From Nocardia wallacei (GTDB taxonomy: Bacteria; Actinomycetota; Actinomycetes; Mycobacteriales; Mycobacteriaceae): DNA of 64,000 nt. Each line of letters starts with the position of its first letter. Position 1 is the first letter of the stretch. A program made the position numbers and the translations under genes. This document shows, piece by piece, positions 38,929 to 58,301 of this stretch. A model generated the notes under the pieces. It searched no databases, was not told where the DNA came from, and saw only the letters and a list, made by a program, of their open reading frames with translations. Location: positions 3,162,001 through 3,226,000 of the forward strand of contig NZ_AP023396.1 of assembly GCF_014466955.1 (NCBI RefSeq), given 5' to 3'.

Positions 38929-40542
38929 TTGCTGGCCACGCGCACAACCTGGAGCATGCCGGCCGCGGTCGCGCTCGCCGTCGCCGTGGTGACGTCGATC
39001 GGGGCAGCGCCCGCGCCCGCGCAGCCGCCCGGCCCCACCACCGACATCGCGATCGAAACCTGTCCCACCTTGTACGCGTTGGGAATTCAGGGCACCGGCG
39101 AGTCCTCTCCCGACGCGGCCCCCACCACCGACACGGGCATGCTGTCCACGGTATTCCTGCCCATGATGGCCCGCGCGGCCGACCGCGGCCTGGTCGAACG
39201 CGCCTACGTCCCCTACGAATCCGGCTTCGGCGGCGCGGTTCCCGGTGGCGTGGCGCCGTACTCGGAATCGCTGGCCGGAGGGTTGTCCCGGCTGCGGGAG
39301 ATGGCCCGCCGGATCGCCCAGCGCTGCGCGCAGACCAGGTTCGCCGTCGTGGGCTATTCCCAAGGCGCGCATGTGGCTTCGCTGTTCGCCCAGGAGGTGG
39401 GCGCGGGCCGCGGCGTGCTGTCGCCCGCACAGGTCGCGGCCGTGGCGCTGTTCGCCGACCCGACCCGCAGCCCGGGCGCCCCGCTGTTCCCGGGCGCGCC
39501 CGGCAAGGACACCCCCGATGCCGCGCCCGGCACCACGGGTGCGCAGGTGACCGCGTTGCGGGTGCTGCCCCAGGAGCCGGCCACCGGCGGCGGCATCGGC
39601 CCGGAGCGCGACCGGGCCGCCGACTTCGGGGCGCTCACCGGCCGCGTCGCGAGCTTCTGCGCCGCGGGCGACCTGGCCTGCGACGCGCCCGCCGGGGCGC
39701 CCATCCTGCGGGCGGTCACGAATATCGCGGGCCAGTCGAGGCTGTCCGGCGGCGACCCGATCGCGGCCCTGGTATCGATCTCGCAGGCGCTGGCGTTCAC
39801 CTCGATCAAGACCGCCGGCACGGTGGTGACCTCCGACCTGCGGGGCGGCGCGCCCGCCTCGCTGTCCTACGAGCCGCGGCAATCCATCTCGCAGCGCATC
39901 GCCGAGGCCTCCGATCCGCGCAGCCGCATCGCGCTCGCCGACCCGATGCGCGCGATGTTCCGGATGGGCGCGATCGGACTGAACGCGGTCGGCACGGTGG
40001 TCCGGTCGGTGCTCGACCCCGCCGCCATCGGCGAATTGGCGCGGGCCGCGTTGAGCAATCCGCCGGTCGCGCTGGTCCTGCTCGCCACGAAACTGACCGG
40101 CGCCGTCACCCAGCTGGTGCCGCCGACCACGGTGTCCCGGCTGGTCACCGAGGCATACGACGCGGTCGTGCAGAACATCACCGACAACAGGGAACTGCTG
40201 GACGCCGCGACCTGGGTCAGATACTGGGACACCGTCCAGCGGCACGGCGCCTACGCCACCGCGGCGGTCGACGCGAGCGGTGACGCCCCCGTCCGGTTCG
40301 TCGCCGACTGGTTCGCCGCCGCGGCACGGGATCTGGCCGGGTCGAACGGTGTTCCGCAACCCCCGAAAGGTACTTCGAACAGCGCGATTACCGGAATCTT
40401 GCGGCCGCCGCCCGGCGCGTCGAGTACGCCGAATTCGTCGGGTACGGGACAATTTCCGTTTGGGACAGGCCCTGGCGGCGTGCCGACGGCCTCGACCACC
40501 GCTGGTACCGCTGACAACAACTACCCGTTCTCCACGAACTGA
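38929..40542 (+). CDS. Secreted cutinase-family hydrolase with long C-terminal extension
   Basis: The 537-residue protein has a signal peptide (MPAAVALAVAVVTSIGAAPAP) followed by a cutinase domain of about 210 residues: ETCPTLYALGIQGTGESS, GYSQGAHVASLF with the nucleophile serine near 144, and ALFADPTRSPGAPLFPG, which includes the region of the catalytic aspartate. Such esterases act on lipids in the mycolate envelope. The remaining 290 residues are not cutinase-like, with hydrophobic and amphipathic helices and a serine/glycine/proline tail. The TTG at 38929 follows AAAGGGG; an ATG at 38956 is the alternative. It is the first gene of the type IV secretion-like operon. Confidence 0.8.
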   Translation: MLATRTTWSMPAAVALAVAVVTSIGAAPAPAQPPGPTTDIAIETCPTLYALGIQGTGESSPDAAPTTDTGMLSTVFLPMMARAADRGLVERAYVPYESGFGGAVPGGVAPYSESLAGGLSRLREMARRIAQRCAQTRFAVVGYSQGAHVASLFAQEVGAGRGVLSPAQVAAVALFADPTRSPGAPLFPGAPGKDTPDAAPGTTGAQVTALRVLPQEPATGGGIGPERDRAADFGALTGRVASFCAAGDLACDAPAGAPILRAVTNIAGQSRLSGGDPIAALVSISQALAFTSIKTAGTVVTSDLRGGAPASLSYEPRQSISQRIAEASDPRSRIALADPMRAMFRMGAIGLNAVGTVVRSVLDPAAIGELARAALSNPPVALVLLATKLTGAVTQLVPPTTVSRLVTEAYDAVVQNITDNRELLDAATWVRYWDTVQRHGAYATAAVDASGDAPVRFVADWFAAAARDLAGSNGVPQPPKGTSNSAITGILRPPPGASSTPNSSGTGQFPFGTGPGGVPTASTTAGTADNNYPFSTN

Positions 40543-40599
40543 TCGCCGAGAGGGTCCGACGATGCTGCACGACGTGCCTGGCTCCGCGGGGATGGGGGA

Positions 40600-41580
40600 A
40601 TGTTGAAGTCGTACAAAGATCTGGCGCGCTGGTACCCGGCGCTCGACCCGCCCGCCGCGGCGGCCCGCCCGCCGGTGCGGGAACGGCCGTCGTTCACCGA
40701 CGAGAGCGCGGGCGGCGGCGCGGCCCGCTACCCGCACTACATTCGCGAGACCGAACCCGAACCGTTCGCCATCGCCTTCGGCGACGAACCGGCCACCAGT
40801 CCCAGCGAATTCACCGGCGGCTGGACCGACTGGGTGGGCGATCACGCCCCCGGCCCCGACGACGACTACCCGGAGCGCCCCGGCGCGGTGGTGCGGTTCC
40901 CCTGGGACGACGAGGCCGACGATGCGGCCGCCGACGAGCCGCGACGAGCGCCGGCGGACGCCGAGCCGCTCGGCCGGATCGGCCGCGACGGCCCGGGAGC
41001 GGCGGCCTCACCGTACCGGCCGGGCACGCTGCGCGCCCGGCCGAGCCCCTGGCGGGTCGCGATCGTCCTGACGGTAGCCGTGCTTTTGCTGGCAGTCGCC
41101 GGAGCCTGCGCGCTGTACCTGCTGCACTTCCGCGGCGGCGCAACGCATTCCAACGGCCCGGCCGCGCCCGCGGTGCGCCTCACCTCGGTCACCGCCGACG
41201 GCGCGGCCACCGGATTCTGCCCCACCGAACGTGCCGCACAGGTGATCCGCGGCGCCGAACCGGGCGGGACCGCCTCCGGTCCGGACGCGATCATGTGGTT
41301 CCAGCACTCGTACTACGTCGAGCGCTCCGCCGAGCGCGCCCGCGAGGTGGTGGCCCCCGGCGCCGCGATCTCGCCCGCGTCGGTGATCCAGCGCGGCATC
41401 GACTCGGTGCCGGCCGGGACCCTGCACTGCGTGCGCGTGCTGACCGTCGCCGAAGACAGGTACACCGTGGAGGTCACCGAACGCCGGCCCGGCCGCGTGC
41501 CGAAGACCTATGACAAACAGACGGTCACCACCGCGGTGATCGGCGGCCGCACCCTGATCACGAGCATCGCGGCCGGGTAA
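40600..41580 (+). CDS. Secretion-operon bitopic membrane protein
   Basis: The 326-residue protein has a cytoplasmic region of about 150 residues that is acidic and proline-rich (YIRETEPEPFAIAFGDEP, DDDYPERPGAVVRFPWDDE), one transmembrane helix (VAIVLTVAVLLLAVAGACAL) and an extracytoplasmic domain of about 130 residues. That domain has WFQHSYYVERSAERAREVV and two cysteines (GFCPT, LHCVR) that could form a disulphide. The name is by position: it follows the cutinase by 57 nt and precedes the P-loop-like gene by 15 nt. The ATG is followed by TTGAAGTCG, and GGGGGA lies upstream. Function unknown. Confidence 0.7.
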   Translation: MLKSYKDLARWYPALDPPAAAARPPVRERPSFTDESAGGGAARYPHYIRETEPEPFAIAFGDEPATSPSEFTGGWTDWVGDHAPGPDDDYPERPGAVVRFPWDDEADDAAADEPRRAPADAEPLGRIGRDGPGAAASPYRPGTLRARPSPWRVAIVLTVAVLLLAVAGACALYLLHFRGGATHSNGPAAPAVRLTSVTADGAATGFCPTERAAQVIRGAEPGGTASGPDAIMWFQHSYYVERSAERAREVVAPGAAISPASVIQRGIDSVPAGTLHCVRVLTVAEDRYTVEVTERRPGRVPKTYDKQTVTTAVIGGRTLITSIAAG

Positions 41581-41595
41581 GAGGAGAGCTGACGG

Positions 41596-42474
41596 ATGGG
41601 ACAGGACTGGAGCCGGTGGCTCGACGAGGCGCCCGAGGCGGGCGACCCGGCGAGCCGTCAACCGCGTGCCAAGGCTCCGGTGGTGCGGTTGCGAAAAGGG
41701 CGACGCGAGGACGGCGGCGACGGGGCCACCCCGCCGCGTTCGGTGCTCGTGGTGGGCGGCTGCGGTGGCGCCGGAACCACCACGACCGCACTCGGAATCG
41801 CGGGCGAACTCGCCGTGGCGGGTGCGCCGACCGTCGCCGTGGATGCCACGGCGGCCGGTAGTGATCTGGCGTTGCGCGGCGCCGACGAGCACCTCAGCCC
41901 GATCAGCCTGCAGCAATGGCTCTACGGCCGCGGCGACGACGAACCGGCGCCGCTGAAGGAATGCCTGTCCCACGCCAGCTCCGGAATCGGCCTGCTGTGG
42001 CGCGATTCGGCCCCGCTGCGCCGCCGTGCCACCTACCTGACCGTCGCCCGCGCGATCGCGGACGCCGGATACACCTCGGTCTACGACGGCGGCAGCCCGA
42101 TCGCCGCCCGCCAGCTGCGCCCGCTGCTCGAGGACGCGGATGTGGCTCTGGTACTGGCCATTCCGGCCCGCGTGGACGCCGCCAACCGGCTGCGCGTCAC
42201 CCTGGAATGGCTCGACGACGAGTTCGGCGGCCCGGCCGAGGGACAGGGCGGCGGCATCGTCGGCGACACCACGATCGTGGTCTCGCATCAGCTGCCCGGC
42301 AACGAACCCACGATCGCCGAACATTTGCGGGAGCATCTGACCGGGTGGGTCCGCGACATCCGCGAGATCCCGTACGACCCACAGCTGGCGCGCGGGGAAC
42401 TGGTGCGGCACAACGTCCTCGGCACGGACACACGCAGGGCTTATCGCACGCTCGTGGCGGGGGTGGCATCATGA
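41596..42474 (+). CDS. MinD/ParA-like protein lacking the P-loop lysine
   Basis: The 292-residue protein has the MinD/ParA fold pattern: VLVVGGCGGAGTTTTALGIA (about residues 50-70), AGAPTVAVDATAAGSDLA, a DGGS segment where the Walker B lies, and VALVLAIPARVDAANRL. In active ATPases the loop reads KGGxGKTT. Here GKT is replaced by AGT and the leading lysine by a glycine, so neither P-loop lysine is present. It may be a regulator or an assembly factor rather than an ATPase. GAGGAGAG precedes the ATG. Its end overlaps the next gene by 4 nt. Confidence 0.75.
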   Translation: MGQDWSRWLDEAPEAGDPASRQPRAKAPVVRLRKGRREDGGDGATPPRSVLVVGGCGGAGTTTTALGIAGELAVAGAPTVAVDATAAGSDLALRGADEHLSPISLQQWLYGRGDDEPAPLKECLSHASSGIGLLWRDSAPLRRRATYLTVARAIADAGYTSVYDGGSPIAARQLRPLLEDADVALVLAIPARVDAANRLRVTLEWLDDEFGGPAEGQGGGIVGDTTIVVSHQLPGNEPTIAEHLREHLTGWVRDIREIPYDPQLARGELVRHNVLGTDTRRAYRTLVAGVAS

Positions 42475-43157
42475 CCGCGGCCATGAAGGAACATCGCAAC
42501 TCCCCCGAACCCGGCGCGCTCGCGGCCGGGGCGGACAGCCCGGCGGGTACGGCGGGCGTCGTCGCCCCGCCGGAGTCCCGTCGCGCCCCCGTGTGGGAGC
42601 GCCCCGTGCCCGGCGCCGGGCGTGCCCCGCTGGTGTGGTTGCTCGGCGTGCACGGCGGCGCGGGCGCCAGCACCCTCGCGCACGTGCTCGCCCCCGCGGC
42701 GGATTCGCACCGGCGCTGGCCGGGTGTGCTCGAACGCGAGTCACCGTTCGTGGTGCTGGTCGCCCGCGAGACGATCGCCGGGCTGGCTCGCGCCCACGAC
42801 CTGCTGCGCCAGCACCGCGCCGGGCTGGCCGGGCCGAGCGAGGTGCTCGGCCTGATCACCGTGGCCGCCCGTCCGGGCCGCATGCCCGCGGAGATCCGGC
42901 GTTATCGCGATGTGGTCGGCTCCCTGGCCGGCCGGGTGTGGCAGGTGCCGTGGCACGAGGAGTGGACGCTCGTCGAGCCCGATCAGCTGCCGGTGTGGTC
43001 ACCGTCGGATCCGCCTCCGCAGCAGAAGAAGCGCAAGCTCGACCCGTTGCAGGAAGTCCCCCACGACGTCGACGAGCTCGGCGCGAGCATCGTCGATCTG
43101 ATACGCGAAAAAGTAACCAGCAGTTCGCACTTGGAAGAAGAAGAGGACGCTCGATGA
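42471..43157 (+). CDS. Second P-loop-like protein without the lysine
   Basis: The 228-residue protein has a disordered N-terminus (about 50 residues), then LVWLLGVHGGAGASTLAHVL, a second ParA-like loop in which the GK is again replaced (GAGAS). VVLVARETIAGLARAHDLLR and LGLITVAARPGRMP resemble the switch strands of such folds. The C-terminus is charged and ends in EEEEDAR. It overlaps the preceding and following genes by 4 nt each. Related small proteins accompany actinobacterial secretion and conjugation clusters; no activity is known to me. Confidence 0.65.
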   Translation: MTAAMKEHRNSPEPGALAAGADSPAGTAGVVAPPESRRAPVWERPVPGAGRAPLVWLLGVHGGAGASTLAHVLAPAADSHRRWPGVLERESPFVVLVARETIAGLARAHDLLRQHRAGLAGPSEVLGLITVAARPGRMPAEIRRYRDVVGSLAGRVWQVPWHEEWTLVEPDQLPVWSPSDPPPQQKKRKLDPLQEVPHDVDELGASIVDLIREKVTSSSHLEEEEDAR

Positions 43158-43450
43158 GTACCATCCTGGCGGCCGTGCACGAGACGTACGGCGTTGTGCT
43201 CGCACAGGTCGGAAATCCGACGCCCGAGGCGCCCCCGGCCTCGGAGAAATTGCTCAAATTGGTGCGGTACTTCACGTGGTTCGTACTGCTGTCCGGAATC
43301 CTCGGAATCACCTACGCGGGAGGCAAATTCGCATGGGAGAAGTGGACGGGTGGCGGCCTGGAGTCGCCGAAGATGGTGGCGGGCGCCATGATCGGAGGCA
43401 TCATCGCGACGAGCGCCGGAACCATCATGAACGCGGTCATCGGTAGCTGA
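43154..43450 (+). CDS. Two-helix small membrane protein, VirB2/TrbC-like
   Basis: The 98-residue protein has an N-terminal extracytoplasmic stretch, then FTWFVLLSGILGITYAGGKF and, after the short polar loop EKWTGGGLESPK, MVAGAMIGGIIATSAGTIMN. Two helices joined by a short basic loop, with glycine/alanine-rich packing faces, are the hallmark of VirB2/TrbC pilin subunits. It has no obvious signal peptidase site. Assignment is by topology and context, not sequence identity. Overlaps the next gene by 1 nt. Confidence 0.6.
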   Translation: MSTILAAVHETYGVVLAQVGNPTPEAPPASEKLLKLVRYFTWFVLLSGILGITYAGGKFAWEKWTGGGLESPKMVAGAMIGGIIATSAGTIMNAVIGS

Positions 43451-43710
43451 TGTCGCCCGCGACCGTGCTTGCCTACAAACAGATGCCGGCCGATGTGGTC
43501 GAGCCCGTCATGCAGTTGATCAACTGGCTGCTGTGGGTCGTGCTGCTGTTCTGCCTGGCCTGGATGATCGTCTCGGCCGGGCGGCTGTGGTCGGCGATGC
43601 GCGACGACATGGCCGTGAACGACGCCTCCCACGGCATCGTGATGAGCCTCATCGGCGCGGTCGTGGCGAGTTCGGCGAGCGCGATCGCGCTGACGCTACT
43701 ACCGACGTGA
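43450..43710 (+). CDS. Second two-helix small membrane protein, VirB2/TrbC-like or VirB3-like
   Basis: The 86-residue protein again has two hydrophobic helices (INWLLWVVLLFCLAWMIVSA and IVMSLIGAVVASSASAIALT) separated by a charged loop of about 20 residues (GRLWSAMRDDMAVNDASHG). It overlaps the previous small gene by one base (TGATG), so the two are made in fixed ratio. It may be a paralogous pilin-like subunit or a VirB3-type partner of the VirB4 ATPase. Confidence 0.55.
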   Translation: MSPATVLAYKQMPADVVEPVMQLINWLLWVVLLFCLAWMIVSAGRLWSAMRDDMAVNDASHGIVMSLIGAVVASSASAIALTLLPT

Positions 43711-43723
43711 ACGGTGGGGTCCC

Positions 43724-44368
43724 ATGACATCGGCCGAGATCGACGCACCCGTGCACCCCGTGCGCATCCGCCGGGCCGCCGCGGGCGTGCTCGGCGCCGC
43801 CGTGCTGGCGGCCGCCGGATGCGGCGGCAGCGGCGGCGCGTCGCATCCGGATCCGCAGCGCCCGCCCAGCGGCGTGCGCTGGCAGCCGTACCAGGGCGTC
43901 GCCCTGCCGGTGACCGATCAGGGCCCCCGAGACGACCGTGACGGCGCCGCAACGGGTTTCGACCGTTCCCCGGCGGGCGCGGTCGTCGCGGCCATCACGC
44001 ATTCCGTGCGGCTGGCGGTCGCGACCGACAGCCAGTGGCCGACGGTGGTCGCGCGGGAAGTCGTGCCCGGCCCCGCCCGCGACGAGTGGGCGGTGAACCG
44101 CGTCCGGTTGTCGATCACCGGGCCCGCGGCGGCACAGTACGCGCCTCGGGTGCTCGGCTATCGCATCACCGCTTACACCGAGGACAGCTCGAACGTGGAT
44201 GTATACACCGAATACTCCGACGGCTCGCGCGCGGTGAACCACACCACCGTCGAATGGTTCGGAGCGGACTGGAGGTTACGACTGCCCGATCCGGACGCCG
44301 ACACGCGCCCGGTCGACGACATCGACCGCGTACCCACCGACATCGTCACCCTGGAGGCCCCGACATGA
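43724..44368 (+). CDS. Lipoprotein of the secretion operon
   Basis: The 214-residue protein ends its signal sequence at the lipobox LAAAGC (Cys33). The mature part contains VRWQPYQGVALPVTDQGPRD and AATGFDRSPAGAVVAAITHS, a module also present in the next two genes, and then NRVRLSITGPAAAQYAPRV and TTVEWFGADWRLRLP. The module and its position resemble the NTF2-like extracytoplasmic parts of VirB8/TcpC proteins. GGTGGGG precedes the ATG. Confidence 0.68.
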   Translation: MTSAEIDAPVHPVRIRRAAAGVLGAAVLAAAGCGGSGGASHPDPQRPPSGVRWQPYQGVALPVTDQGPRDDRDGAATGFDRSPAGAVVAAITHSVRLAVATDSQWPTVVAREVVPGPARDEWAVNRVRLSITGPAAAQYAPRVLGYRITAYTEDSSNVDVYTEYSDGSRAVNHTTVEWFGADWRLRLPDPDADTRPVDDIDRVPTDIVTLEAPT

Positions 44369-44421
44369 GAGTGCGCAACGAGCGCGGGCGGCTCCCAGAC
44401 GACGGCCGGGGGGAGCCATGA
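44365..44421 (+). CDS. Eighteen-residue micro-frame linking two operon genes
   Basis: An ATG at 44365 overlaps the stop of the lipoprotein gene (ATGA) and the frame MRVRNERGRLPDDGRGEP ends in a TGA that overlaps the ATG of the next gene (ATGA). The peptide itself is probably unimportant; the frame could carry ribosomes across the 49-nt gap. It also contains GGGGGGAGCC, which may be the ribosome-binding site of the next gene, so chance is not excluded. Confidence 0.25.
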   Translation: MRVRNERGRLPDDGRGEP

Positions 44422-45260
44422 GCGAGAAGAGCGCCACCCGGGCCTATGCCGGGGAGGACCGCGGCATGTCCTTCGGCGTCATCGCCTCCGCCGCGGTGCT
44501 CGCCCTGATCGTGGTCGTCGGCGTGTTCATGTATGTCGGGCGGGACGATTCGGGCGGCGACAAGCCCGCCGACTCGCTGCCGTCGCCCGCCGCGGGCACC
44601 GGGGCGACCGGTTTCGCCGCGCCCGAGGTCGATCTGTTCGGCCGCCGGGTCGATATCCCGAACAACCCCGCGGGCCAACCGCTCGCGCAGGACCCGTCGC
44701 AGGAGAAGAGCCCCACCGACGACGACTGGCTGACCGCCGCGCCCACCGGCACCACCGACCCGCGCGGCTGGCAGCGCGTCTACGGCGCGTCGGTCCCGTT
44801 CTCCACGAGCGACGGTCCCGCTCGCATCGATGAGAACGGCCTGGCCGTCGGTTACTCGCACACCCCGCAGGGCGCGGCGCTGGCGGCGGCGCAGATCACC
44901 TACCGCCTCAACGCCCGTCCCGCCGACCGCGCCCTCTACACCACGCAGGTGCGGGCGAGCGATCAGCAACTGGCCGCCTACGACAAGGCGCTCGATGCCG
45001 GGAAGCTGCCGAAACAGCAGCCCAAGCGGATCACCCAGTACCTGGTGGCGCCGGACGCGTTCCGGGTCGAGAACTACGCCGACGATATGGCCATCGTGCG
45101 GCTGGCCGCGCGCGGCCCGGTGAACGACGGCAAGCAGCTGTGGGCCGCGGTGCGGCTGGTGCTGGTCTGGGACGCGGGGGACTGGCGGCTCAAGCCGACC
45201 GAGTCCAAGGGCTCGCCGACCGAGTACATCGACTCGATCGCGGGGTGGACGACATGGTGA
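44418..45260 (+). CDS. Bitopic membrane protein, VirB8/TcpC-like candidate (copy 1)
   Basis: The 280-residue protein has a short cytoplasmic N-terminus, one transmembrane helix (FGVIASAAVLALIVVVGVFM) and an extracytoplasmic domain. PEVDLFGRRVDIPNNPAGQP is shared almost exactly with the next protein. GWQRVYGASVPFSTSDGPAR and LAVGYSHTPQGAALAAAQIT match the lipoprotein module upstream, followed by VRLVLVWDAGDWRL. It ends IAGWTTW. This topology and duplication fit a VirB8/TcpC-type bridge of the secretion channel. Overlaps the next start by 7 nt. Confidence 0.68.
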   Translation: MSEKSATRAYAGEDRGMSFGVIASAAVLALIVVVGVFMYVGRDDSGGDKPADSLPSPAAGTGATGFAAPEVDLFGRRVDIPNNPAGQPLAQDPSQEKSPTDDDWLTAAPTGTTDPRGWQRVYGASVPFSTSDGPARIDENGLAVGYSHTPQGAALAAAQITYRLNARPADRALYTTQVRASDQQLAAYDKALDAGKLPKQQPKRITQYLVAPDAFRVENYADDMAIVRLAARGPVNDGKQLWAAVRLVLVWDAGDWRLKPTESKGSPTEYIDSIAGWTTW

Positions 45261-46093
45261 GCGGTCCGAACGGCGGAATCTCGTTGCGTCTGCTGGGTTT
45301 CGCGGCGGTGCTGACCGTCACGCTGGCGGTGGCGGCGACCGTGGTGACGATGCGGCGCGACGGCGCGGCCACGGCGTCTGGCAGCGGCCCGAGTCCGGTG
45401 GTGAGCGCGAGCACGGTCGCCGCGCCCGCCCCGGCGGGGTTCGGCGCGCCGGATGCCGACATGTTCGGCCGCCGCGTCGATATCCCCGACGACCCCGCGG
45501 GACAAGCGCTTCCACAGGATCCGGCCGCGCAGGTGCGGCCCGACGATCCGCGGTGGCAGACGGTAGCGCCGAATCCGGTTCAGGGCGAAGGGATCTGGCA
45601 GCGCGTGTTCGGCGGTCCGGTGGTGCGGTTCTCCGGCTCCGACGGCCCGAGCCGGGTCGAGGGCCGGGCGGCGCTGGGATACGCCCGCACGCCACAGGGC
45701 GCGGCACTGGCCGCCGAACAGCACTTCTGGCGCACCAACGCCAATCCCGCCGACCGCGACCTGCTGCTGCGGCTGGTGGCGGTGTCACCGGACTACCTGG
45801 CCGAATACGATCGGCTGGTCGCCGCGGGCAAGGTCTCCGACCGCCTGCCCGAGAAACTGACGCCGTTGTTATACGCCTCTGACGCGTTCCGCATCGATAG
45901 TTGGGATCCCGACCACGCGGTGGTCGACATCGCGAGAAAGGCAAGAGAAGTCATCGATGGCCAACCGACATGGGTGGGCATGCGTCTTGCGGTCGTCTGG
46001 CGCGACGGCGATTGGAAGTTGACGGCTGTGGACGGGCAACAACTGGTCCGGATCGATTCACTGCGAAGCATCGAGGGGTGGACCACATGGTGA
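45254..46093 (+). CDS. Bitopic membrane protein, VirB8/TcpC-like candidate (copy 2)
   Basis: The 279-residue protein is a paralogue of the preceding one: one N-terminal transmembrane helix (LLGFAAVLTVTLAVAATVVT), DADMFGRRVDIPDDPAGQ, WQRVFGGPVVRFSGSDGPSR, LGYARTPQGAALAAEQ, MRLAVVWRDGDWKL, and the same C-terminal GWTTW. The two genes end with nearly identical DNA that also forms the overlapping ATGGTGA start of the next gene. A tandem duplication is evident. The partners probably form a hetero-oligomer. Confidence 0.68.
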   Translation: MVSGPNGGISLRLLGFAAVLTVTLAVAATVVTMRRDGAATASGSGPSPVVSASTVAAPAPAGFGAPDADMFGRRVDIPDDPAGQALPQDPAAQVRPDDPRWQTVAPNPVQGEGIWQRVFGGPVVRFSGSDGPSRVEGRAALGYARTPQGAALAAEQHFWRTNANPADRDLLLRLVAVSPDYLAEYDRLVAAGKVSDRLPEKLTPLLYASDAFRIDSWDPDHAVVDIARKAREVIDGQPTWVGMRLAVVWRDGDWKLTAVDGQQLVRIDSLRSIEGWTTW

Positions 46094-52000: not shown

Positions 52001-52769
52001 CAAGGGCCTGCGCCGCTCGCTGCGCGCGCTCACCCAGGGCCCGTTCGGCGCGGTGTTCAACGGCCAGACCACCACGCCGATCGATACCTCCGCGGTGGCC
52101 GTCTGCATCGACGTGTCGCATATCCCGCAGGGGGACAAGAAGCTCAAGGCCGCCGTCATGCTGTCGTGCTGGGCCGACGGCTTCGCCTCCGTCGAGGCGG
52201 CGCACGTGCTCGCCGACGCCAAGCTCGGCCCGCAGCGTTACTTCCAGGTCGTGATGGACGAGTTGTGGCAGGTCCTCGGTCTCGGTGATTTCATGGTCGA
52301 CCGCGTCGACGAGCTGACCCGCCTGCAGCGCGGCCTGGCCACCTCGCTGATCATGATCAGCCACACCATCAAGGACCTGCAGTCGCTCGGGTCGGAGGCG
52401 GCCATCGCCAAGGCGCTCGGCTTCCTGGAACGCGCGCGCGCCAAGATCTTCGGCGCGCTGCCGCCGGAGGAGATCAAGCGCCTGGACTCGACGGTGCCGT
52501 TCACCGCCGCCGAGGAGGAGATGGTGACGGGTTGGTCGGCGCCGCAGGCACTGACGGGTGAGGCTCTCAAACCCGGGCAGGCCCGCCCGCCCGCGCCGGG
52601 CACCGGCAAGTTCCTGCTGAAGATCGGCGAGGATCGCCGCCCGGGCATTCCGTTCCACATGGAATTCACCGCGTCGGAGCGGGAGAGCGGCATCCACGAG
52701 ACCAATCAGCGCTTCAGCGAGTTCACCGAATCCACGGCGCGCACCGGGGACGAGGGGAGCGCCGCGTGA
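49098..52769 (+). CDS. VirB4-like secretion ATPase with long disordered N-terminus
   Basis: The 1223-residue protein consists of about 640 residues of low-complexity arginine/glutamate/glycine/serine-rich sequence followed by an ATPase of VirB4/TraG type. The motor shows the Walker A LGLNGFGKSSLVRRIV (about residue 805), LILADVKPDYRKMVEMVGG, a helical insertion, the Walker B VVMDELWQVLG (about 1051), and LTRLQRGLATSLIMISHT. The disordered half holds a 96-bp (32-residue) tandem repeat. It should power assembly or substrate transport through the channel. GGAGG at 49082 supports the ATG at 49098. There are no transmembrane helices, so docking to the membrane probably goes through the preceding SCO6880-type protein. 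Confidence 0.8.
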   Translation: MAGEHEPPVRSRGEPPRYRERVVDPENPVPVRRGTRRGRDGEWELEAYTPGDPGSADWPADWDEVPLRPIRRRAPGEPGASHAGRETPESRTARAEIRDPGASGDRSAATRRHRDDPDTSSRRPRTAPREVERSGADEIESRTARGKSRTAIERDRPVEDQEARRAEARGSQRGREPRSTRAQTHGPATESASARAVSNGTRRHDAVPATGRVPAPEREVPGTESATRASEPHPPVEEARHPGHGGADSSKTTPGQRDNAHGSDPTNSDPNHPASSNGTEPTRPHPGHGAADSAIEHEGAHPDHGATAPDTGSAEPELDRGVDGRGTESEESRPERGGAGRGAGSGRSGAERGVDGRGTESAGSRPERGGAGRSAKSGRSGAERGVDGGGVGSVRSEVRGSRSAESADGSRAGRAESQRLNMASGASGSERAGARGADGTGAEAGRAGRRAADYDGTDGFVAAPEEVPAGDAPGTARPRGELRSGAGELPGSAVMDNDETGYQLDVGPPPFTDVPADVPSGNGGPRRKPNGAPGADPRSGSGPSRRDERPRGESANRAPSSDRRGGRREPLSGETAARPAQRRAPDEPTVRHRVRGGERGDTGRTDRSRASDRPLREPVAPHPMRAPVPPRFAGPRPAPTGADPRPPRGSSRKGKNARAKKQGPPLLDDSTRARYEAIARERGGLRAAWAAFRIRTDDLRRANAMARYEAIVEDGFERDAQPLTDRGYLGPGGGRMSVVGRPVEYRATTAQVAGLWPWSVGAGAPLIGTPLGSHLHTGAPVCFDPMNWFMRGSFITAPSLFVLGLNGFGKSSLVRRIVLGGVAQGITPLILADVKPDYRKMVEMVGGQVIDLGYGHGVLNPLAAGVLGSIVPRLADVPALQLQVTQELRARQVTLVAGLVELVRGARVRDYEETLISTALRILYREGSGYTPDNPPIMENLADVITAGGQELMLDAGAESSEEYHEATKGLRRSLRALTQGPFGAVFNGQTTTPIDTSAVAVCIDVSHIPQGDKKLKAAVMLSCWADGFASVEAAHVLADAKLGPQRYFQVVMDELWQVLGLGDFMVDRVDELTRLQRGLATSLIMISHTIKDLQSLGSEAAIAKALGFLERARAKIFGALPPEEIKRLDSTVPFTAAEEEMVTGWSAPQALTGEALKPGQARPPAPGTGKFLLKIGEDRRPGIPFHMEFTASERESGIHETNQRFSEFTESTARTGDEGSAA
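50055..50277. repeat. In-frame 96-bp tandem repeat inside the VirB4-like gene
   Basis: CGTGGTGTGGACGG occurs at 50055, 50151 and 50247, a spacing of exactly 96 bp. Each unit contains two related 48-bp halves (encoding ERGVDGRGTESAGSRP and ERGGAGRSAKSGRSGA), giving about two and a half copies. The reading frame is kept, so copy number changes would lengthen or shorten the disordered tail without breaking the ATPase. Confidence 0.8.
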
Positions 52770-52854
52770 GGCCGGGTGCGGTCGCCGTCGCGGCAGGGCC
52801 GCCGCCGCACCACTATTCGCTCAGTCGGCTGCCGAGCATCGGGAGGTTCATCGG

Positions 52855-53163
52855 ATGATGCCGCACAGGTCCTATCGAAGAGTGTCGCCGGAGGTGCGCC
52901 GGGCCGCGGTCGAGCAGGTCAACGCGCTGATAGGGAAGCTACGCAGCGAGTCGGAGGCCTGCCGCGTGGTGGCCGAGCAGATCGGGGTGCACACCAACTC
53001 GGTGCGTAACTGGGTCCGCGCGGCCGAGGGCCCGGGCCTCGAGCGCATGGACGCCTCCGCCCTGCGCCGCAAGGTGGCTCTGCTGCAACAGCAATTGGCC
53101 GCCGCCGCCGAGATGAACCGCACCCTGGTCGAAACCCTCAACGACGCCCGACGCGGCACATGA
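52855..53163 (+). CDS. IS3 OrfA-like helix-turn-helix protein
   Basis: The 102-residue protein resembles the OrfA (InsN/IS911-type) protein of IS3-family elements: RRVSPEVRRAAVEQVNALIG, SEACRVVAEQIGVHTNSVRN, WVRAAE and a C-terminal leucine-rich coiled coil (LRRKVALLQQQLAAAAEMN). No OrfB integrase, no terminal inverted repeats and no target duplication surround it, and its ATG is preceded by GGAGG within the secretion operon. I therefore read it as a captured DNA-binding protein rather than a live IS. Its end overlaps the next frame (ATGA). Confidence 0.7.
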   Translation: MMPHRSYRRVSPEVRRAAVEQVNALIGKLRSESEACRVVAEQIGVHTNSVRNWVRAAEGPGLERMDASALRRKVALLQQQLAAAAEMNRTLVETLNDARRGT

Positions 53164-53702
53164 CCGCTCCCACCCTCCACCCGGCCACACCCACCGCTGC
53201 TTCCCGCCCCCAGTCCGCGCGGCGTGACCGTGCGCGCAATGCGGCCGAGCTGGAATTCGCCGGGCGGCGTGACAGTGCGTTGGGTACGGCCGAGCTGGAA
53301 ATCGTCCGGCGGTGCGACAGTGCGCCGGGTACGGTTGCGCTGGGGATCGCTGGGGGGCGTGCATGCGCGCAGGGCAGGGCACGGCTGGAAATCGCTGGGC
53401 ATGGATGTGCGCTGAGTACGGCGGCAGTGGAAACCGCTGGGCGGTGGGAAAGTGCGCGGGGTGTGGCGGCATCGGAAATAACCGGGCGGCGTAGGCGTGC
53501 GCTGGGCGCGGGGGCACGGGAGCCCGCTGTGTGGCGTCGGTGGGTGGTAGGGCCGGAAACGCCTGGGCGGCTGAATGGTTCGGCGGTGCGATGGGTTGTG
53601 TCTCGGGGGTGTGGTGTACGGGAGACGGGGAGGGTTGCTGTGTGGTCGTTTGAGCGGTTCGTGCCGGGGGGGCGCGGAGGCGATGCCGCGGGGGTGCGGT
53701 GA
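53160..53702 (+). CDS. Repeat-containing open frame between overlapping genes
   Basis: A 180-codon frame starts in the stop of the IS3-OrfA-like gene (ATGA) and stops over the GTG of the hydrolase gene (GTGA), so it fits the operon exactly. Most of it is a degenerate 15-residue repeat (LEIAGRRDSALGTAE-like) encoded by a 45-bp minisatellite. No signal peptide or domain is seen. The minus strand is also open here, so coding is not certain; the overlaps at both ends are the main argument. It may merely carry translation to the next gene. Confidence 0.4.
   Translation: MTAPTLHPATPTAASRPQSARRDRARNAAELEFAGRRDSALGTAELEIVRRCDSAPGTVALGIAGGRACAQGRARLEIAGHGCALSTAAVETAGRWESARGVAASEITGRRRRALGAGAREPAVWRRWVVGPETPGRLNGSAVRWVVSRGCGVRETGRVAVWSFERFVPGGRGGDAAGVR
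53205..53590. repeat. 45-bp degenerate minisatellite, about eight copies
   Basis: Units beginning CTGGAAATCGCTGGGCGG or a close variant start at 53250, 53295, 53340 and 53385 (exactly 45 bp apart), then near 53427, 53472 and 53517. A weaker first unit starts near 53205 and a last one near 53553. One unit is 42 bp and one 36 bp, always losing whole codons, which suggests selection on the plus-strand frame or its opposite. Confidence 0.75.
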
Positions 53703-55381
53703 GCGCGAAGACCCTGGTATGGACGGGCTTCGGGAGTGTGATCGCACTGGTCACGCTGATCCTCGTGGTGCTGGTGCCCGCGTCGGAGAACGCGTGCGAC
53801 ACCACCACCGTCCCGTCGTCGGCGGGCGGCTACCCGCCGGGTGATCCCCGGGCACTGGCTTCCTCCGCCTCGGTCGCCACGACGGGAACGGCATCGCGCC
53901 CGCAGACCCCGGGCGTGACGAACGCGCCTGCGGCCATGACGAAGTCGACCGCGACCGGCACCCCGTCCCTGGCCGCGGGCAATGCCCCGATCCGGCGGAC
54001 CTGGCCGTTGCCCGGCGGCTCGTTCTACGTCTCGGACACCTTCGGCGCCCGCGGCGGCGCCCACCTCGGCGTCGACCTGGCGGCCGCGGACGGCACACCC
54101 ATCTACTCCGTCGCCGACGGCGTGGTGGTGGCGGCGGGCCCGGCCTCCGGCTTCGGCAACTGGATCGTCATCGACTCCATCGACGTCAACGGCCGCCCGT
54201 TCTCGGCGGTGTACGGGCACGAATGGGACAGCGGAGTGAAGGTGCGCGTCGGCCAGACCGTGCGCGCCGGTGACGAGATCGGCGCGGTGGGCTCGGCGGG
54301 CGAATCCTCGGGCCCGCACCTGCATTTCGAGATCGTGCCGGGCGGGCGCTTCGCGGGTGGCCGCCAGATCGACCCGCTGCCCTGGCTGGACGGCGCGCCC
54401 ACCCCGAATGCCGGTGGGGCGTGGCCGTATTCGTCGGATCCGCGGTGCCTGCGCGGCTTCGGCACCGCCGGTGGCGCGCTGGCCGACGGCAAGGTGCCGC
54501 CCGAACTCGAAATCTGGTATCGCCGTGCGGGTTCGCTGTGCCCGGAGATCACGCCGTCGATCCTGGCCGCCCAGGGCCGCCAGGAATCCGGGTTCCGGCG
54601 CGGCCTCACCTCACCGGCCGGTGCGCAGGGCCTGGCGCAGTTCCTGCCCACCACGGCCCGCGCGACCGACCCCGACGACGGTCAGCCGTATCTGCTCGAC
54701 GCCGACGGCAACGGCTCGGCCAGCCTGTGGGACGACGGCGACGCGATCATCGCCCAGGGCCGCTACATGTGCTCGATCGCGCATCAGGTGGAGCGCTGGA
54801 TCGGCGAGGGCAAGGTGCGAGGCGATGTCGTCCCGCTCAGCCTGGCCGCCTACAACGCCGGTGAGGGCGCGGTTCTCGCGTCCGGCGGCATGCCCAACCA
54901 GTACGCCGCGCACTTCTCCGAAACCCAGCCCTACGTGGCCAATATCCTCGCCATGGAGGCGCAGTACCGCGCACCGGGCGCGATGGGCCGGTATCAGCCC
55001 GAGGGCCGCGGCAGCGGCACCGATGTCGTCGAGGCCGCCGAGCAGTGGCTCGGCACCCCGTACGTGTGGGGCGGCGGCGGTCCGGCCGGACCCACCGGCG
55101 GCGGCCTGGACGGTCCCGGCCTCACCGCGGCCGCCGTCTTCGCGGCCTCGTCCGGTCAGGTGTCGCTGCCGCGCACCGCCGAACAGCAGTGGGAGATGGG
55201 CGCGGAAGTGCCTGGGAGCAAAGCGCAACCGGGGGACCTGGTGTTCTCCCGGTTCGGTCCGCGCGGCCCGGCGGAGGTCGGCGTCTACACCGGCAACGGC
55301 ACGATGATCCAGGCCGCCAGCCCTTCCGGCGTGCGCGAGGTACCGGTGCCCGGCGACGGTCGGCTGCGGAGGATGCTGTGA
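53699..55381 (+). CDS. Cell-wall hydrolase: M23 + lytic transglycosylase + inactive NlpC/P60 domain
   Basis: The 560-residue protein has an N-terminal membrane anchor (GFGSVIALVTLILVVLV). An M23 metallopeptidase follows (HLGVDLAA with the His/Asp zinc ligands, SSGPHLHFEI with HxH, about residues 105-225), then an SLT-type transglycosylase (ILAAQGRQESGF with the catalytic glutamate near 295, GAQGLAQFLPTTA, LAAYNAGEGAV) and an NlpC/P60 fold (about 442-560). In the last, the nucleophile motif DCSGL reads DGPGL and the HVGIY histidine reads EVGVY, so it should be inactive. Such fused hydrolases open the peptidoglycan for type IV channels (VirB1/TcpG-like). The GTG at 53699 overlaps the previous stop. 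Confidence 0.85.
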   Translation: MSAKTLVWTGFGSVIALVTLILVVLVPASENACDTTTVPSSAGGYPPGDPRALASSASVATTGTASRPQTPGVTNAPAAMTKSTATGTPSLAAGNAPIRRTWPLPGGSFYVSDTFGARGGAHLGVDLAAADGTPIYSVADGVVVAAGPASGFGNWIVIDSIDVNGRPFSAVYGHEWDSGVKVRVGQTVRAGDEIGAVGSAGESSGPHLHFEIVPGGRFAGGRQIDPLPWLDGAPTPNAGGAWPYSSDPRCLRGFGTAGGALADGKVPPELEIWYRRAGSLCPEITPSILAAQGRQESGFRRGLTSPAGAQGLAQFLPTTARATDPDDGQPYLLDADGNGSASLWDDGDAIIAQGRYMCSIAHQVERWIGEGKVRGDVVPLSLAAYNAGEGAVLASGGMPNQYAAHFSETQPYVANILAMEAQYRAPGAMGRYQPEGRGSGTDVVEAAEQWLGTPYVWGGGGPAGPTGGGLDGPGLTAAAVFAASSGQVSLPRTAEQQWEMGAEVPGSKAQPGDLVFSRFGPRGPAEVGVYTGNGTMIQAASPSGVREVPVPGDGRLRRML

Positions 55382-55473
55382 GAACCGCGCACAGGCGAAA
55401 CGGACACGCCGGGACCGGATCCGCGACGCTGTTGCCGAACCACCGGCCCCGCCGGATAACCTGGAAGAACACG

Positions 55474-56010
55474 GTGAAATACGCGAACTTGGTGGTGGTG
55501 CTGGTGGCAGGTGTCGCGATGCTGACCGCCGCGTGCGGCGGGGAGGGGTCGGAATCGGCCGGGCGCTCACCCACGTCCACCGTCCGGCAGCTCGAAGCGG
55601 TCCCGGCGCCGGATCCCACCACCCCCGACGGCGTGGCGGTGGCCGCGCTGCGGGAGATCTACACCTGGCACCCGGCCGCCGAGGACCAGGGCGCGTCGCT
55701 CGCGCGGGCGCGGAAATGGCTCGGCCCCAGCCTGATCCGGACGTTGGACACCCCACCCGGCGCCGAGACGCCGAAACCGACGCTGCGCTGGGTGGATTGG
55801 GGCCGGGCGGGCGCCACGGTGGAGGCGTTCACCTTCGCCTCGGGCGAGCAGGCCCCCACCACCGGCGATCCCGGCCACCAGCAGTTCAAGATCGGAATCG
55901 AACAGACCGTCGTCTATCCCGACGGCCGGCGGGAGCCCTTGCCGCCGGCGACGGTCATCGCGACGGTCGCGCGCACCCCCGACGGCTGGCGGCTCGACGG
56001 ATTCCGCTGA
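55474..56010 (+). CDS. Lipoprotein with NTF2-like domain, secretion operon
   Basis: The 178-residue protein has a textbook lipoprotein signal of 20 residues (YANLVVVLVAGVAMLTAAC, Cys21), a short serine/threonine linker, and a domain beginning GVAVAALREIYTWHP, with LARARKWLGPSLIRTL and ending VARTPDGWRLDGFR. This resembles the NTF2-like fold of actinobacterial lipoproteins near conjugation genes. The GTG at 55474 with GGAAG upstream gives the ideal signal; a GTG at 55378 overlapping the previous stop (GTGA) would add 32 residues. Confidence 0.68.
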   Translation: MKYANLVVVLVAGVAMLTAACGGEGSESAGRSPTSTVRQLEAVPAPDPTTPDGVAVAALREIYTWHPAAEDQGASLARARKWLGPSLIRTLDTPPGAETPKPTLRWVDWGRAGATVEAFTFASGEQAPTTGDPGHQQFKIGIEQTVVYPDGRREPLPPATVIATVARTPDGWRLDGFR

Positions 56011-56049
56011 GCGTCACCTACGAATACGGTCTCACCCCAGGAGGCGGAG

Positions 56050-57909
56050 ATGGCGAAGAAGGTACGGGACCCGGCCGATCCGGGTCCGGACGTATCCCTG
56101 TATCTGATCTACATCGGTTTCGCGATAGTCGGAATCGTGTGGCTCGCACTGCATCTCGGCAACCACATGTCGGTGACCAAACAGGACATCCCGATCAATC
56201 CGATCGCGATCGTGGCGGGTCTGGCGCGCGGCAAGTTCGAGTGGCCGCGCGCCTCCACGGTGATCCTGCTGTTCGTGGTCCTCGCTATCGTGGCCGCGGT
56301 GGTGGTGCGCCGCCGGCTGAAGAAGAACAAGGGCAAGGGCCGACTGCCGGTCGACGACAAAGCCCAGTACATGGGCAGCGGCGGCGCCATCGCGGCGCTC
56401 ACCGCCGCCGGCGCGCGGGAGAAGGCCGAGCAACTCGGTGTGCGCCTGGGCTACGATGACGCTCCCGGCGTGCCGATCGGCATCTCCGTCGCCGACGGCG
56501 TCCCGCTCTACGGCTCCTACGAGGATCTCCACCTGGACATCTGGGGCCCCCGCCAGGGCAAGACCACCTCGCGGGTGATCCCGGCCATCCTCGACGCGAT
56601 CGGCCCGGTGCTGGCCACCTCGAACAAACGCGACGTGGTGGACGCGACGCGAGATGTGCGGGAGGCCAAGGGATCTCGTACCTTCGTGTTCGACCCGCAG
56701 GGCGTGGCGGGCGAGCCGCCGACCTGGTACTGGGATCCGTTGCGGTGGGTGAACGCGCCGCACGCGGGCTGCGAGATGCGGGCCTCCCGCCTGGCCGGTC
56801 ACTTCGCCGACGGCGACGACGGATCCGACCAGGGGCCGGACAACTACTTCGATCCCGAGGCCGAGGACCTGCTCGCGGGCCTGTTCCTGGCGGCTTCGGT
56901 GTCGCGGCGGTCGATCATCGACGTCTGGGAATGGGTCACCGACCCGAACAACGGTGAGCCCGTGGAGATCCTGCGCAGCGCGGCGAGCCAGTACGGCGCC
57001 GAGGCCTACGGCCTGAACTTCACCGCGTCCGGCCTGGCGCAGCAGTACAACGCCGACCCGCGCACCAAGAGCAGCATCTTCGGTACCGCCAAGAAGATGG
57101 TCCGCTGCCTGAAACTGTCGAATGTGCTGCCGTGGGTCACCCAGGGCGCGGGCGACACCCGTTACGAACTGGACGAATTGGAGTTCCTCGACGGCAACTG
57201 GACCCTCTACTGCCTGTCGCTGGAGGGCCGCGGCTCGGCCGGTCCGCTGGTGAGCGCGCTGACCGAAGCGGTGATCGAGCGCGCGATGGACAAGGCGGCG
57301 CGGTCGCGGGGCGGCCGCTTGCCGATCCCGTTGCTGGCGGTCCTGGACGAGGCCGCGAACATCGTGCGCTGGAAGGATCTGCCCAAGCAGTACAGCCACT
57401 TCGGTTCCCGCGGCATCGTGGTGATGACGGTGCTGCAGTCGTGGGCGCAGGGCGTCCGGTGCTGGGGTCCGTCCGGTATGGAGGCGTTGTGGGCCGCCGC
57501 GAATATCAAGGTGCTGGGTAGCGGTATCGACGACATCGGGTTCCTGACCGCCCGCTCGGAAGCGATCGGCGACTACGACTCGATCTCCGCCTCGGTGTCG
57601 GAATCCAAAGGCGGCAAGAGCTATTCGAAGTCGCTGGGCTCCTCGCGCACCCTGAACGTGAACGCACTGGTGACATTGCCCCGGGGGCGTGCGGTGGTCT
57701 TCTCCTCGGGCGCCCCGGCGACGCTGGTGCGCACGGTTCCGTGGTGGGACGGCGACTACGCCGACGCGGTGCGGCGCTCGATCGACCGCCACGACCCGCA
57801 GCGGCAGCAGACCACATTCACCGATCTGGTGGAGGAGCGCAACACCTACGACGCGCCGCCGACGCCGCCCGAGACCTACGGACAGCCCGAGGAGGTTCGC
57901 CCGCTGTGA
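56050..57909 (+). CDS. VirD4/TraG-type coupling ATPase
   Basis: The 619-residue protein has two N-terminal transmembrane helices (LYLIYIGFAIVGIVWLALHL and STVILLFVVLAIVAAVVV), then a RecA-like motor: Walker A IWGPRQGKTTSRVIP (about residue 167), ATSNKRDVVDATRDV, and Walker B LLAVLDEAANIVRW (about 431), with VVMTVLQSWAQGV and an extended C-terminus. These are hallmarks of type IV coupling proteins that select substrates for secretion. GGAGGCGG precedes the ATG. Its presence without a relaxase suggests non-DNA substrates or a mobile element in trans. Confidence 0.85.
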   Translation: MAKKVRDPADPGPDVSLYLIYIGFAIVGIVWLALHLGNHMSVTKQDIPINPIAIVAGLARGKFEWPRASTVILLFVVLAIVAAVVVRRRLKKNKGKGRLPVDDKAQYMGSGGAIAALTAAGAREKAEQLGVRLGYDDAPGVPIGISVADGVPLYGSYEDLHLDIWGPRQGKTTSRVIPAILDAIGPVLATSNKRDVVDATRDVREAKGSRTFVFDPQGVAGEPPTWYWDPLRWVNAPHAGCEMRASRLAGHFADGDDGSDQGPDNYFDPEAEDLLAGLFLAASVSRRSIIDVWEWVTDPNNGEPVEILRSAASQYGAEAYGLNFTASGLAQQYNADPRTKSSIFGTAKKMVRCLKLSNVLPWVTQGAGDTRYELDELEFLDGNWTLYCLSLEGRGSAGPLVSALTEAVIERAMDKAARSRGGRLPIPLLAVLDEAANIVRWKDLPKQYSHFGSRGIVVMTVLQSWAQGVRCWGPSGMEALWAAANIKVLGSGIDDIGFLTARSEAIGDYDSISASVSESKGGKSYSKSLGSSRTLNVNALVTLPRGRAVVFSSGAPATLVRTVPWWDGDYADAVRRSIDRHDPQRQQTTFTDLVEERNTYDAPPTPPETYGQPEEVRPL

Positions 57910-58301
57910 GCGATCAGCAACACGACCTGATCTACGCCGACGTCGTCGAGTTCGTGGAGAATTACCTGAGCTTGATCTATCGCCGCCAGGTCACCGATCT
58001 CACCGACACCGTGTGGTGCCCGGAGTGGTGGAAGCACGCGGAGGCCGTGGTCCGGCTGCAGGCGCTGTGGCGGGCCTGGGAGCATCTGCGCCAGGATGAG
58101 ACCACCGGAATGAGCGTCTGGTTTCTCGATCACGCGGATCCGCACATGAACAAATTGCTGGATCCGCGGGGGCCGTTCAAATTCTGCAGCGTGCGCCACG
58201 GGCACAAGGAAATGCTCAACCCGCTGCCGCTGAAGTCACCGCAGCACGGCATGTTCGGCGACCCGACCATCGATCCGGCCGCGGACAACTTCCGCTCCTG
58301 A
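57906..58301 (+). CDS. DUF4913-family protein
   Basis: The 131-residue protein matches DUF4913, a family found with actinobacterial mobile elements and conjugation genes: WCPEWWKHAEAVVRLQALWR, GMSVWFLDHADPHM and LLDPRGPFKFC. The motif density of tryptophan and histidine is high and there are no membrane helices. The GTG overlaps the coupling-protein stop (GTGA). Last plus-strand gene of the operon. Function unknown. Confidence 0.8.
   Translation: MSDQQHDLIYADVVEFVENYLSLIYRRQVTDLTDTVWCPEWWKHAEAVVRLQALWRAWEHLRQDETTGMSVWFLDHADPHMNKLLDPRGPFKFCSVRHGHKEMLNPLPLKSPQHGMFGDPTIDPAADNFRS

Follow-up and report, generated by a model that had tools for sequence, protein, structure and literature searches.

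A relaxase-less type IV secretion system fixed in the chromosome of Nocardia and its possible use by channel-less plasmids

The conjugative plasmids of Rhodococcus and Nocardia combine a type IV secretion system (T4SS) with a relaxase. pRErm46 from R. equi is self-transmissible and encodes a MOBP relaxase, MobC, a T4SS, a cutinase and an endopeptidase; according to the available text the cutinase was suggested to act on the mycolate layer (PMC6794481). Relaxase-less chromosomal T4SSs and mobilizable elements which pirate foreign conjugative systems are likewise known kinds. Some integrative and mobilizable elements (IMEs) have a coupling protein of their own, nearly all known mobilizable plasmids are without one, and the accessible sections of the source treat the helpers of such elements as co-resident conjugative elements (PMC5704250). 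In actinobacteria a 2011 survey, in its accessible part, reported many relaxases, few T4SSs and coupling proteins and a surprisingly low number of conjugative systems (PMC3158045). Here we describe a T4SS of the type present on Rhodococcus and Nocardia conjugative plasmids which is located in the chromosome of Nocardia wallacei (RefSeq GCF_014466955.1; a chromosome of 7,832,428 bp and a second contig of 60,434 bp). The window is the whole stretch analysed, 64,000 nt of contig NZ_AP023396.1 (positions 3,162,001 to 3,226,000). Coordinates are positions in this window, and the locus under study extends from 38929 to 58301, between relA and ppiB. In the open-licence literature no paper was found on a core Nocardia T4SS or on its pairing with channel-less plasmids.

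A core secretion locus of Nocardia

The locus comprises 17 plus-strand genes, A to M and O to R, in a compact array in which 7 neighbouring pairs overlap by 1-7 bp. They encode a conjugation-type T4SS with a split VirB4, VirB6-, VirB8- and pilin-like proteins, a wall hydrolase, a cutinase and VirD4. A previous sequence-only reading of this DNA had proposed a T4SS operon. The gene array and the VirB4, VirD4 and hydrolase matches bear this out, whereas the names VirB2, VirB6 and VirB8 rest on topology, position or weak matches. Gene K (47553..49046) belongs to the SCO6880 family (NF042935, 559.9 bits at a cut-off of 60) and is presumably the VirB3/VirB4 N-terminal-like part. Gene L (49098..52769, start uncertain) probably encodes the VirB4-like ATPase, its core beginning at about residue 650. 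Its family matches are below the curated cut-offs (P-loop_TraG, 21.7 bits at a cut-off of 25.8; VirB4_plasma NF045975, E 3.5e-15 and 54.8 bits at an equivalog cut-off of 590). An intact Walker A motif, GLNGFGKS, was present in 29/29 loci; the Walker B pattern used matched 0/29. Gene Q (56050..57909) encodes the VirD4/TraG-like coupling protein (T4CP; PF12696 with 97.3 bits and PF02534 with 69.4 bits, both over cut-off). The motif LAVLDE was found in 29/29 loci and the textbook GxxxxGK[ST] spacing in 0/29; Q has a shorter form, GPRxGK[ST], which is common to the T4CPs of plasmids L054-L056. Against the sequences of solved structures neither Q nor the L core gave a match at E 0.01. L and Q represent the VirB4- and VirD4-type ATPases of a T4SS, and a polytopic VirB6-like protein and a VirB1-like hydrolase are encoded beside them.

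The distribution was examined in 150 Nocardia genomes. At a threshold of at least 89% identity a K orthologue was present in 130. In 19 of the other 20, T4SS genes adjoin relA and/or ppiB and the contig ends within the operon, so that these were not true absences. Overall, T4SS genes were present in 149/150 genomes; the sole possible exception, G054, is an assembly of 1,340 contigs. For the synteny count, positions were found among the matches listed for 130 K, 147 relA and 145 ppiB genes (of 150 each), and 7 of the 130 K genomes were uninformative. K was beside or between relA and ppiB in 123/123 informative genomes and no case contradicted this. All three genes shared a contig in 90 genomes and K lay between the other two in every one, with relA in opposite orientation in four; K adjoined relA in 9 genomes with only relA on the contig and ppiB in 24 with only ppiB. 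In 10 genomes (G023, G044, G138, G080, G149, G131, G133, G042, G066, G114) extra DNA separates relA and K, which are 16-35 kb apart there instead of about 9 kb. Among 401 genomes sampled from the family, the best K copy after these (87%) came from a single other genus (G179), again with relA and ppiB on either side; no match to A, C, G or M was seen at that locus. All other family matches to K, among those listed, were at 63% or below. Many Nocardia genomes hold further K copies at about 63% or less, and G018 has a second T4SS copy which is 76-77% identical (L046, G018:C1:6776000-6795999), in a stretch without matches to B, C, M, P, Q, R or S.

Trees built from six T4SS proteins were compared with those of relA plus ppiB. 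The relA part and all six T4SS genes were available in 26 of the 29 sequences prepared, and congruence was calculated for the 19 loci with a usable ppiB (the sequences left out include L028 with its short K, L029 and G179). The two trees shared 11/16 splits; upon permutation of labels the mean was 0.2 and the maximum 3. Flank splits with a support of at least 0.9 were all recovered in the T4SS tree (9/9), and 10/13 T4SS splits with such support were present in the flank tree. The Mantel correlation of T4SS and flanks was 0.88, a value reached in 0/2000 permutations. Mean protein identity was 0.935 for K and 0.934 for the relA part. The ratio of nonsynonymous to synonymous substitution rates (dN/dS), calculated for seven pairs, was 0.010-0.050 for K, 0.023-0.035 for the relA part and 0.105-0.254 for Q; a value of 0.83 for the cutinase (one pair) was disregarded, the match being short.

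No relaxase or integrase family was found among the open reading frames (ORFs) scanned at the locus (Pfam; genes D, F and P by NCBIfam only), and no repeat of at least 20 nt brackets it. The sequence-only reading had likewise noted neither relaxase nor integrase nor attachment (att) site. Of the features by which an integrative and conjugative element (ICE) or a conjugative plasmid is recognised, relaxase, integrase, att repeats and a patchy distribution were not found here. Distribution, synteny, tree congruence and purifying selection therefore demonstrate that the locus is not a mobile element, and a recent ICE or a decayed element was rejected on the first three. The T4SS is a core, vertically inherited Nocardia host system under purifying selection. 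This agrees with the sequence-only reading, which had argued for a chromosomal, vertically kept locus; two of the checks it had named, synteny across the genus and purifying selection, came out in its favour.

Channel-less plasmids of Nocardia

A search of a plasmid collection for VirD4 yielded a 49-kb plasmid of N. salmonicida which has its own VirD4 and DUF4913 protein and no further match to the T4SS genes. Its 887-amino-acid (aa) 'hypothetical' protein was identified by Pfam as a MOBP relaxase, encoded beside a MobC/NikA protein. In total 14 such elements were analysed: 8 circular named plasmids and 6 contigs, of which G060:C2 and G125:C2 are from two-contig assemblies and four are draft contigs of undemonstrated circularity. 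Sequences were whole or all but <2 kb (50,000 of 51,855 and 50,000 of 50,215 bases in two elements). VirD4, DUF4913, MOBP, MobC, toprim and RRQRL matches were present in 14/14. Channel components were detected by homology in 0/14; this covered SCO6880, VirB4, VirB6, pilin-like, VirB8-like, hydrolase, cutinase, helix-turn-helix (HTH) and ParA-like classes. In four channel-bearing controls the SCO6880, VirB4, VirB6, VirB8-like, hydrolase and cutinase classes were detected in 4/4. Three of these controls contain some of the query proteins; the independent one is the plasmid of N. wallacei itself (60,000 of 60,434 bases read), which was detected at 24-46%. The gene tables of the eight named plasmids, which are incomplete, list no TraB/FtsK product. 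Nine of the 14 elements carry, in addition to MOBP, a MOBF match of >1,200 aa (e.g. L222, L223, L225, L227).

The core CGCTGCGCTGG was present upstream of mobC in 10/10 intergenic regions (8 of these plasmids and 2 Rhodococcus plasmids), and the core as such in 12/14 elements. When 17 sites were folded with RNA parameters, 13 had two hairpins directly before the core, and the arms covary between plasmids; other folds were obtained at the sites of N. salmonicida, G060:C2 and the two Rhodococcus plasmids. Hairpins plus core upstream of mobC have the layout of an origin of transfer (oriT), and we refer to these sites as oriT-like. Judged by their genes, the 14 elements would be mobilizable plasmids, i.e. 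equipped with relaxase, accessory protein and putative oriT and devoid of a mating channel.

Genus-wide, 19 elements with this VirD4 type (at least 58%) were found in 17 genomes, and six of these elements were read, one of them as its named record of equal length; G125:C2 comes in addition at 46-48%. In 11 element-bearing genomes (G006, G028, G038, G060, G061, G064, G070, G080, G106, G125, G134) the chromosomal SCO6880 gene was the only match among the at most 10 candidates scored per genome. This includes the two-contig assemblies G060 and G125. In the material analysed the group was seen only in Nocardia: in the plasmid collection all 10 records which cover at least 80% of the toprim gene are from this genus.

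How are the plasmid coupling proteins related to that of the locus? In a tree of 36 VirD4 proteins the 14 plasmid proteins (support 95) are sister to the 14 chromosomal ones (100). The joint clade has an ultrafast bootstrap (UFBoot) of 100 and is separate from the VirD4s of conjugative plasmids of Nocardia, Rhodococcus and Micrococcales. Such a topology is consistent with the division of a single ancestral system, the channel going to the chromosome and the relaxosomes to plasmids.

Relaxases were then counted in the 150 genomes. MOBF (PF08751) was found in 103 and MOBP (PF03432) in 33; MOBQ relaxases (PF03389), considered as candidates for acting in trans, were rejected with 0/150. The searches covered these three families. 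The N. wallacei genome had no match to PF03432 or PF03389. It has a TrwC-type fragment (PF08751) with an internal stop about 2.1 Mb from the locus (L189, G000:C1:1058761-1059360). Its 60-kb contig (G000:C2, L201-L203) carries a divergent channel set, with SCO6880 at 34%, VirB4 at 36% and cutinase at 33%, and no VirD4, DUF4913 or relaxase was found on it by homology, nor a relaxase or coupling protein among 10 ORFs scanned. In gene content it is the mirror image of the channel-less plasmids.

What the channel may carry

The complementary gene content of chromosome and plasmids suggests a host-encoded transfer channel that serves plasmids in trans, a proposal for which, from sequence comparison, the chances appear even. 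In its strongest form, which is somewhat less probable, this would be a split conjugative system: the channel would be permanent, genus-wide host equipment, and a dedicated plasmid group, seen in Nocardia only, would keep the DNA-processing half and its own coupling protein and depend on the channel. A T4SS related to those of Rhodococcus and Nocardia conjugative plasmids probably took its place between relA and ppiB prior to the diversification of Nocardia, lacking a relaxase, a recognised oriT and an integrase, and has since been inherited vertically under purifying selection. Most likely the channel is still an active route of translocation from cell to cell, powered by VirB4 (K and L) and VirD4, with J and the VirB8-like and pilin-like subunits as its body. 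Hydrolase O would open the peptidoglycan, and the mycolate layer may be the target of cutinase A in genomes which keep it. On the plasmids, MobC and MOBP, often with MOBF carried as well, would assemble a relaxosome at the oriT-like site. The plasmid VirD4, with DUF4913, would dock to the chromosomal channel and hand the relaxosome over, and DNA substrates would thus be supplied in trans. Since Q, M and R are strictly conserved, there should be a substrate on the side of the host, and we infer that the host, too, gains something.

Several data weigh against this model. 41/150 genomes lack MOBF and MOBP, 37 of them among the 130 with a K orthologue. The T4SS is kept regardless of these relaxases; its conservation must therefore have causes besides plasmids. 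The controls missed the pilin-like class in 2/4 and the HTH and ParA classes in 1/4, so the absence of these classes from the elements says little. The exact oriT-like core is absent in G125:C2 and G061:C41, in 3/7 additional elements of which a part was read and in the sequenced stretch analysed from the N. asteroides conjugative plasmid, and in most plasmids the 11-base core occurs exactly once more at another position. With at most 10 candidates scored per genome divergent channels could escape detection, and only in G060, G061, G064, G080 and G125 of the 11 genomes was the element read whole. Two to five SCO6880 matches occurred in 70/150 genomes, i.e. other helpers are common. Rhodococcus plasmids have more VirD4 than SCO6880 matches (121 vs 91); channel-less T4CP plasmids may therefore not be unique to Nocardia. 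Finally, outside the N-terminus the identity of the chromosomal VirD4 was 0.537 to the plasmid group vs 0.539 to Nocardia and Rhodococcus conjugative plasmids, and in the N-terminal 120 residues, likely the docking part, 0.241 vs 0.324.

The alternative with most in its favour is a protein exporter. After loss of the relaxase the T4SS would have been co-opted as a route by which host proteins, be they effectors, antibacterial toxins or envelope enzymes, reach neighbouring cells or the medium, and the plasmids would be irrelevant or opportunistic. Relaxase families are missing at the locus, and the system including VirD4 is strongly conserved even in the 41 genomes without MOBF and MOBP. There is precedent in MOBless T4SSs, which, in the accessible part of the survey, often secrete proteins (PMC3158045), and in the relaxase-poor T4SS of Patescibacteria in the available text (PMC12102498). 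However, the genes are arranged much as on a relaxase-bearing plasmid, the complementary half occurs on plasmids, and nine proteins scanned with PADLOC gave no match, the only search made for effector or immunity genes. We consider this explanation rather doubtful. The step from a relaxase-less locus to a secretion machine for proteins or effectors, taken in the sequence-only reading, is not supported. The search for relaxases in trans which it had recommended led to Nocardia plasmids with MOBP, MobC, an oriT-like site and their own VirD4 and no channel match. A role in DNA transfer appears to us more likely than protein secretion.

Alternatively, the channel could move or release chromosomal DNA of the host, with an unrecognised relaxase or none, similar to mycobacterial distributive conjugal transfer with ESX. 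In M. smegmatis chromosome transfer requires ESX-1 and ESX-4, according to the available text (PMC12857230). Such a function would suit a machine that belongs to the host core and includes a coupling protein of the DNA type, the conserved HTH protein M and the ParA-like proteins C and D. Yet the relaxase families covered are not present in all genomes, and the oriT core of the plasmids was no more frequent in the window than by chance (no exact match and 2 with one mismatch vs 0.90 expected) and was rejected as an element of this DNA. In the locus DNA of relatives 7 exact 13-base matches occurred in 2.06 Mb, a count made without control; an unrelated oriT could be located at the locus. Chromosome exchange thus appears unlikely.

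Slightly less probable still is that co-resident conjugative plasmids or ICEs provide the T4SSs for the channel-less plasmids and that the chromosomal T4SS has an unrelated role. Nocardia has conjugative plasmids of this T4SS family, additional SCO6880 matches are frequent as stated above, and the plasmid T4CPs are about as identical to T4CPs of conjugative plasmids as to chromosomal ones; against this stand the 11 element-bearing genomes with only the chromosomal SCO6880 match and the position of the plasmid T4CPs as sister to the chromosomal clade. A defence system was rejected, as no PADLOC match was obtained for the nine proteins scanned.

If the model of a shared chromosomal channel holds, the host offers conjugation as a standing service, and transfer in the absence of a conjugative plasmid may be open to Nocardia plasmids typed as mobilizable or non-mobilizable. 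A core host channel plus channel-less plasmids may then help to explain the excess of relaxases over T4SSs in actinobacteria. It would also be a clear example, in a genus with mycolates, of a conjugation apparatus which has become an organelle of the host and is passed on vertically.

Parts, flanks and comparison with known systems

Conservation was scored gene by gene as the presence of a match in each of 49 named loci whose flanks are complete; 49/49 had matches to C, D, E, F, H, I, J, K, L, M, P, Q, R and S. Gene A (38929..40542) codes for a secreted cutinase-like esterase of 537 aa (PF01083, 43.9 bits, over cut-off) and is accessory, with some match, of whatever length, in 33/49 loci. In L010, L027 and L030-L032 the cutinase matches span only 5-9% of the protein, and in L033 the gene is absent between relA and gene B. 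Gene B (40600..41580) encodes a fast-evolving protein of 326 aa with one transmembrane (TM)-like segment (48/49 loci, mean identity 0.54). Gene C (41596..42474) may be a MinD/ParA/CpaE-like ATPase (TIGR03815, E 1.9e-4, below cut-off) and D (42471..43157) a DUF6668-like, ATPase-like protein which matches a pCP105 gene annotated as DUF6668; the motif patterns for C and D matched in 26/28 and 22/29 loci. E (43154..43450) is a small membrane protein with a mean identity of 0.90, pilin-like by size and position only, and F (43450..43710) a second small pilin-like protein with two TM segments (NF045849, weak, E 0.0085). Both we take to be VirB2-like. Gene G (43724..44368) is predicted to encode a lipoprotein (lipobox-like AAGC) and was found in 30/49 loci.

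H (44418..45260) is a single-TM protein, possibly VirB8/TcpC-like by a weak NTF2-like resemblance. Its predicted structure had a low predicted local distance difference test score (pLDDT 52). Proteins whose fold we take to be that of NTF2 were among the best fold hits, none at E <= 0.001, and the VirB8-like OrfG (6zgn) ranked 41 with this low-confidence model. I (45254..46093) is a paralogue of H; a DNA repeat, D1, is common to both at 73%. In several loci the best match to I was the H gene itself, the two queries hitting the same ORF. The VirB6-like name of J (46087..47556) derives from its seven TM-like segments and its position; no family model names it. The N-terminal tail of L (49098-51000) is repeat-rich and variable in Nocardia, with an open frame of 660-1368 aa, and its codon bias is unlike that of the L core. 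In the sister genus (572 aa) only a short tail is present, and the pCP105 protein (552 aa) has none. Gene M (52855..53163) encodes a small HTH DNA-binding protein of 102 aa of the transposase-OrfA type (PF01527, 28.8 bits); it is a conserved component and occupies the same place on pCP105. An ORF at 53160-53702 was rejected as a gene since it matched in 0/49 loci. O (53699..55381) is the VirB1-like wall hydrolase with M23, SLT and NlpC/P60 domains, all over cut-off, found in 41/49 loci; by homology it was not detected at L036, L038 and L049 (G149, G131, G120), though most of the operon is present there. P (55474..56010) probably is a lipoprotein (lipobox-like TAAC). R (57906..58301) is a DUF4913 protein (PF16259, 139.4 bits; predicted structure with pLDDT 62), and its gene adjoins that of the T4CP both at the locus and on the plasmids.

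The locus is followed on the minus strand by gene S (58313..58867), a constant neighbour. Among the best 120 of 180 matches the named relatives of S are from Nocardia except one labelled Streptomyces gardneri; weak part-matches occurred on two plasmid stretches. The flanks relA, ppiB and hisS, as named in the sequence-only reading, were confirmed. On the left, relA (34290..36695, plus strand) is interrupted by a TAG in its own frame (35937-35939). This leaves ORFs 34290-35939 and 36033-36695, which share that frame, and TIGR00691 matches both halves. The frame has 695-1044 aa in other genomes, among the matches listed, vs 558 aa in the window. The TAG may reflect a true truncation or an error in sequencing; relatives have intact copies. 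On the right ppiB (59253..60125, minus strand) is followed by hisS (60043..61527, plus strand; TIGR00442, 438 bits). Presumably relA and ppiB are neighbours in mycobacteria as well. No tRNA genes were found in the window. The G+C content of the locus is near that of its surroundings and up to 0.75 in places.

How does the locus compare with known systems? pCP105 is nearly collinear with it, i.e. cutinase, DUF6668, SCO6880, VirB4, HTH, M23 hydrolase, VirD4 and DUF4913. pRECF1 has the same kinds of genes in rearranged order, and the likeness of the N. asteroides conjugative plasmid CP089213 is known from annotation only. K of the locus is 34-63% identical to the plasmid copies seen, and the locus adds the long variable VirB4 tail and gene S. 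These plasmids carry a relaxase, pCP105, pRECF1 and pRErm46 also MobC, whereas the locus is chromosomal, relaxase-less and vertically inherited. This it has in common with the MOBless chromosomal T4SSs and protein exporters, which in the accessible part of the survey are likewise chromosomal and without relaxase (PMC3158045); unlike these, it is accompanied in its genus by plasmids with the matching relaxase half. The T4SS of Patescibacteria is, in the available text, likewise monoderm-type, chromosomal, widespread and mostly without relaxase; the Nocardia system differs from the description there in having the VirD4 gene inside the operon (PMC12102498). The channel-less plasmids resemble the mobilizable plasmids and IMEs which pirate conjugative systems, these being described in the accessible sections as equipped with their own relaxase, MobC and oriT-like site and no channel (PMC5704250). 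In contrast to such pirates, the Nocardia plasmids bring their own VirD4, and the helper proposed for them is a fixed chromosomal system.

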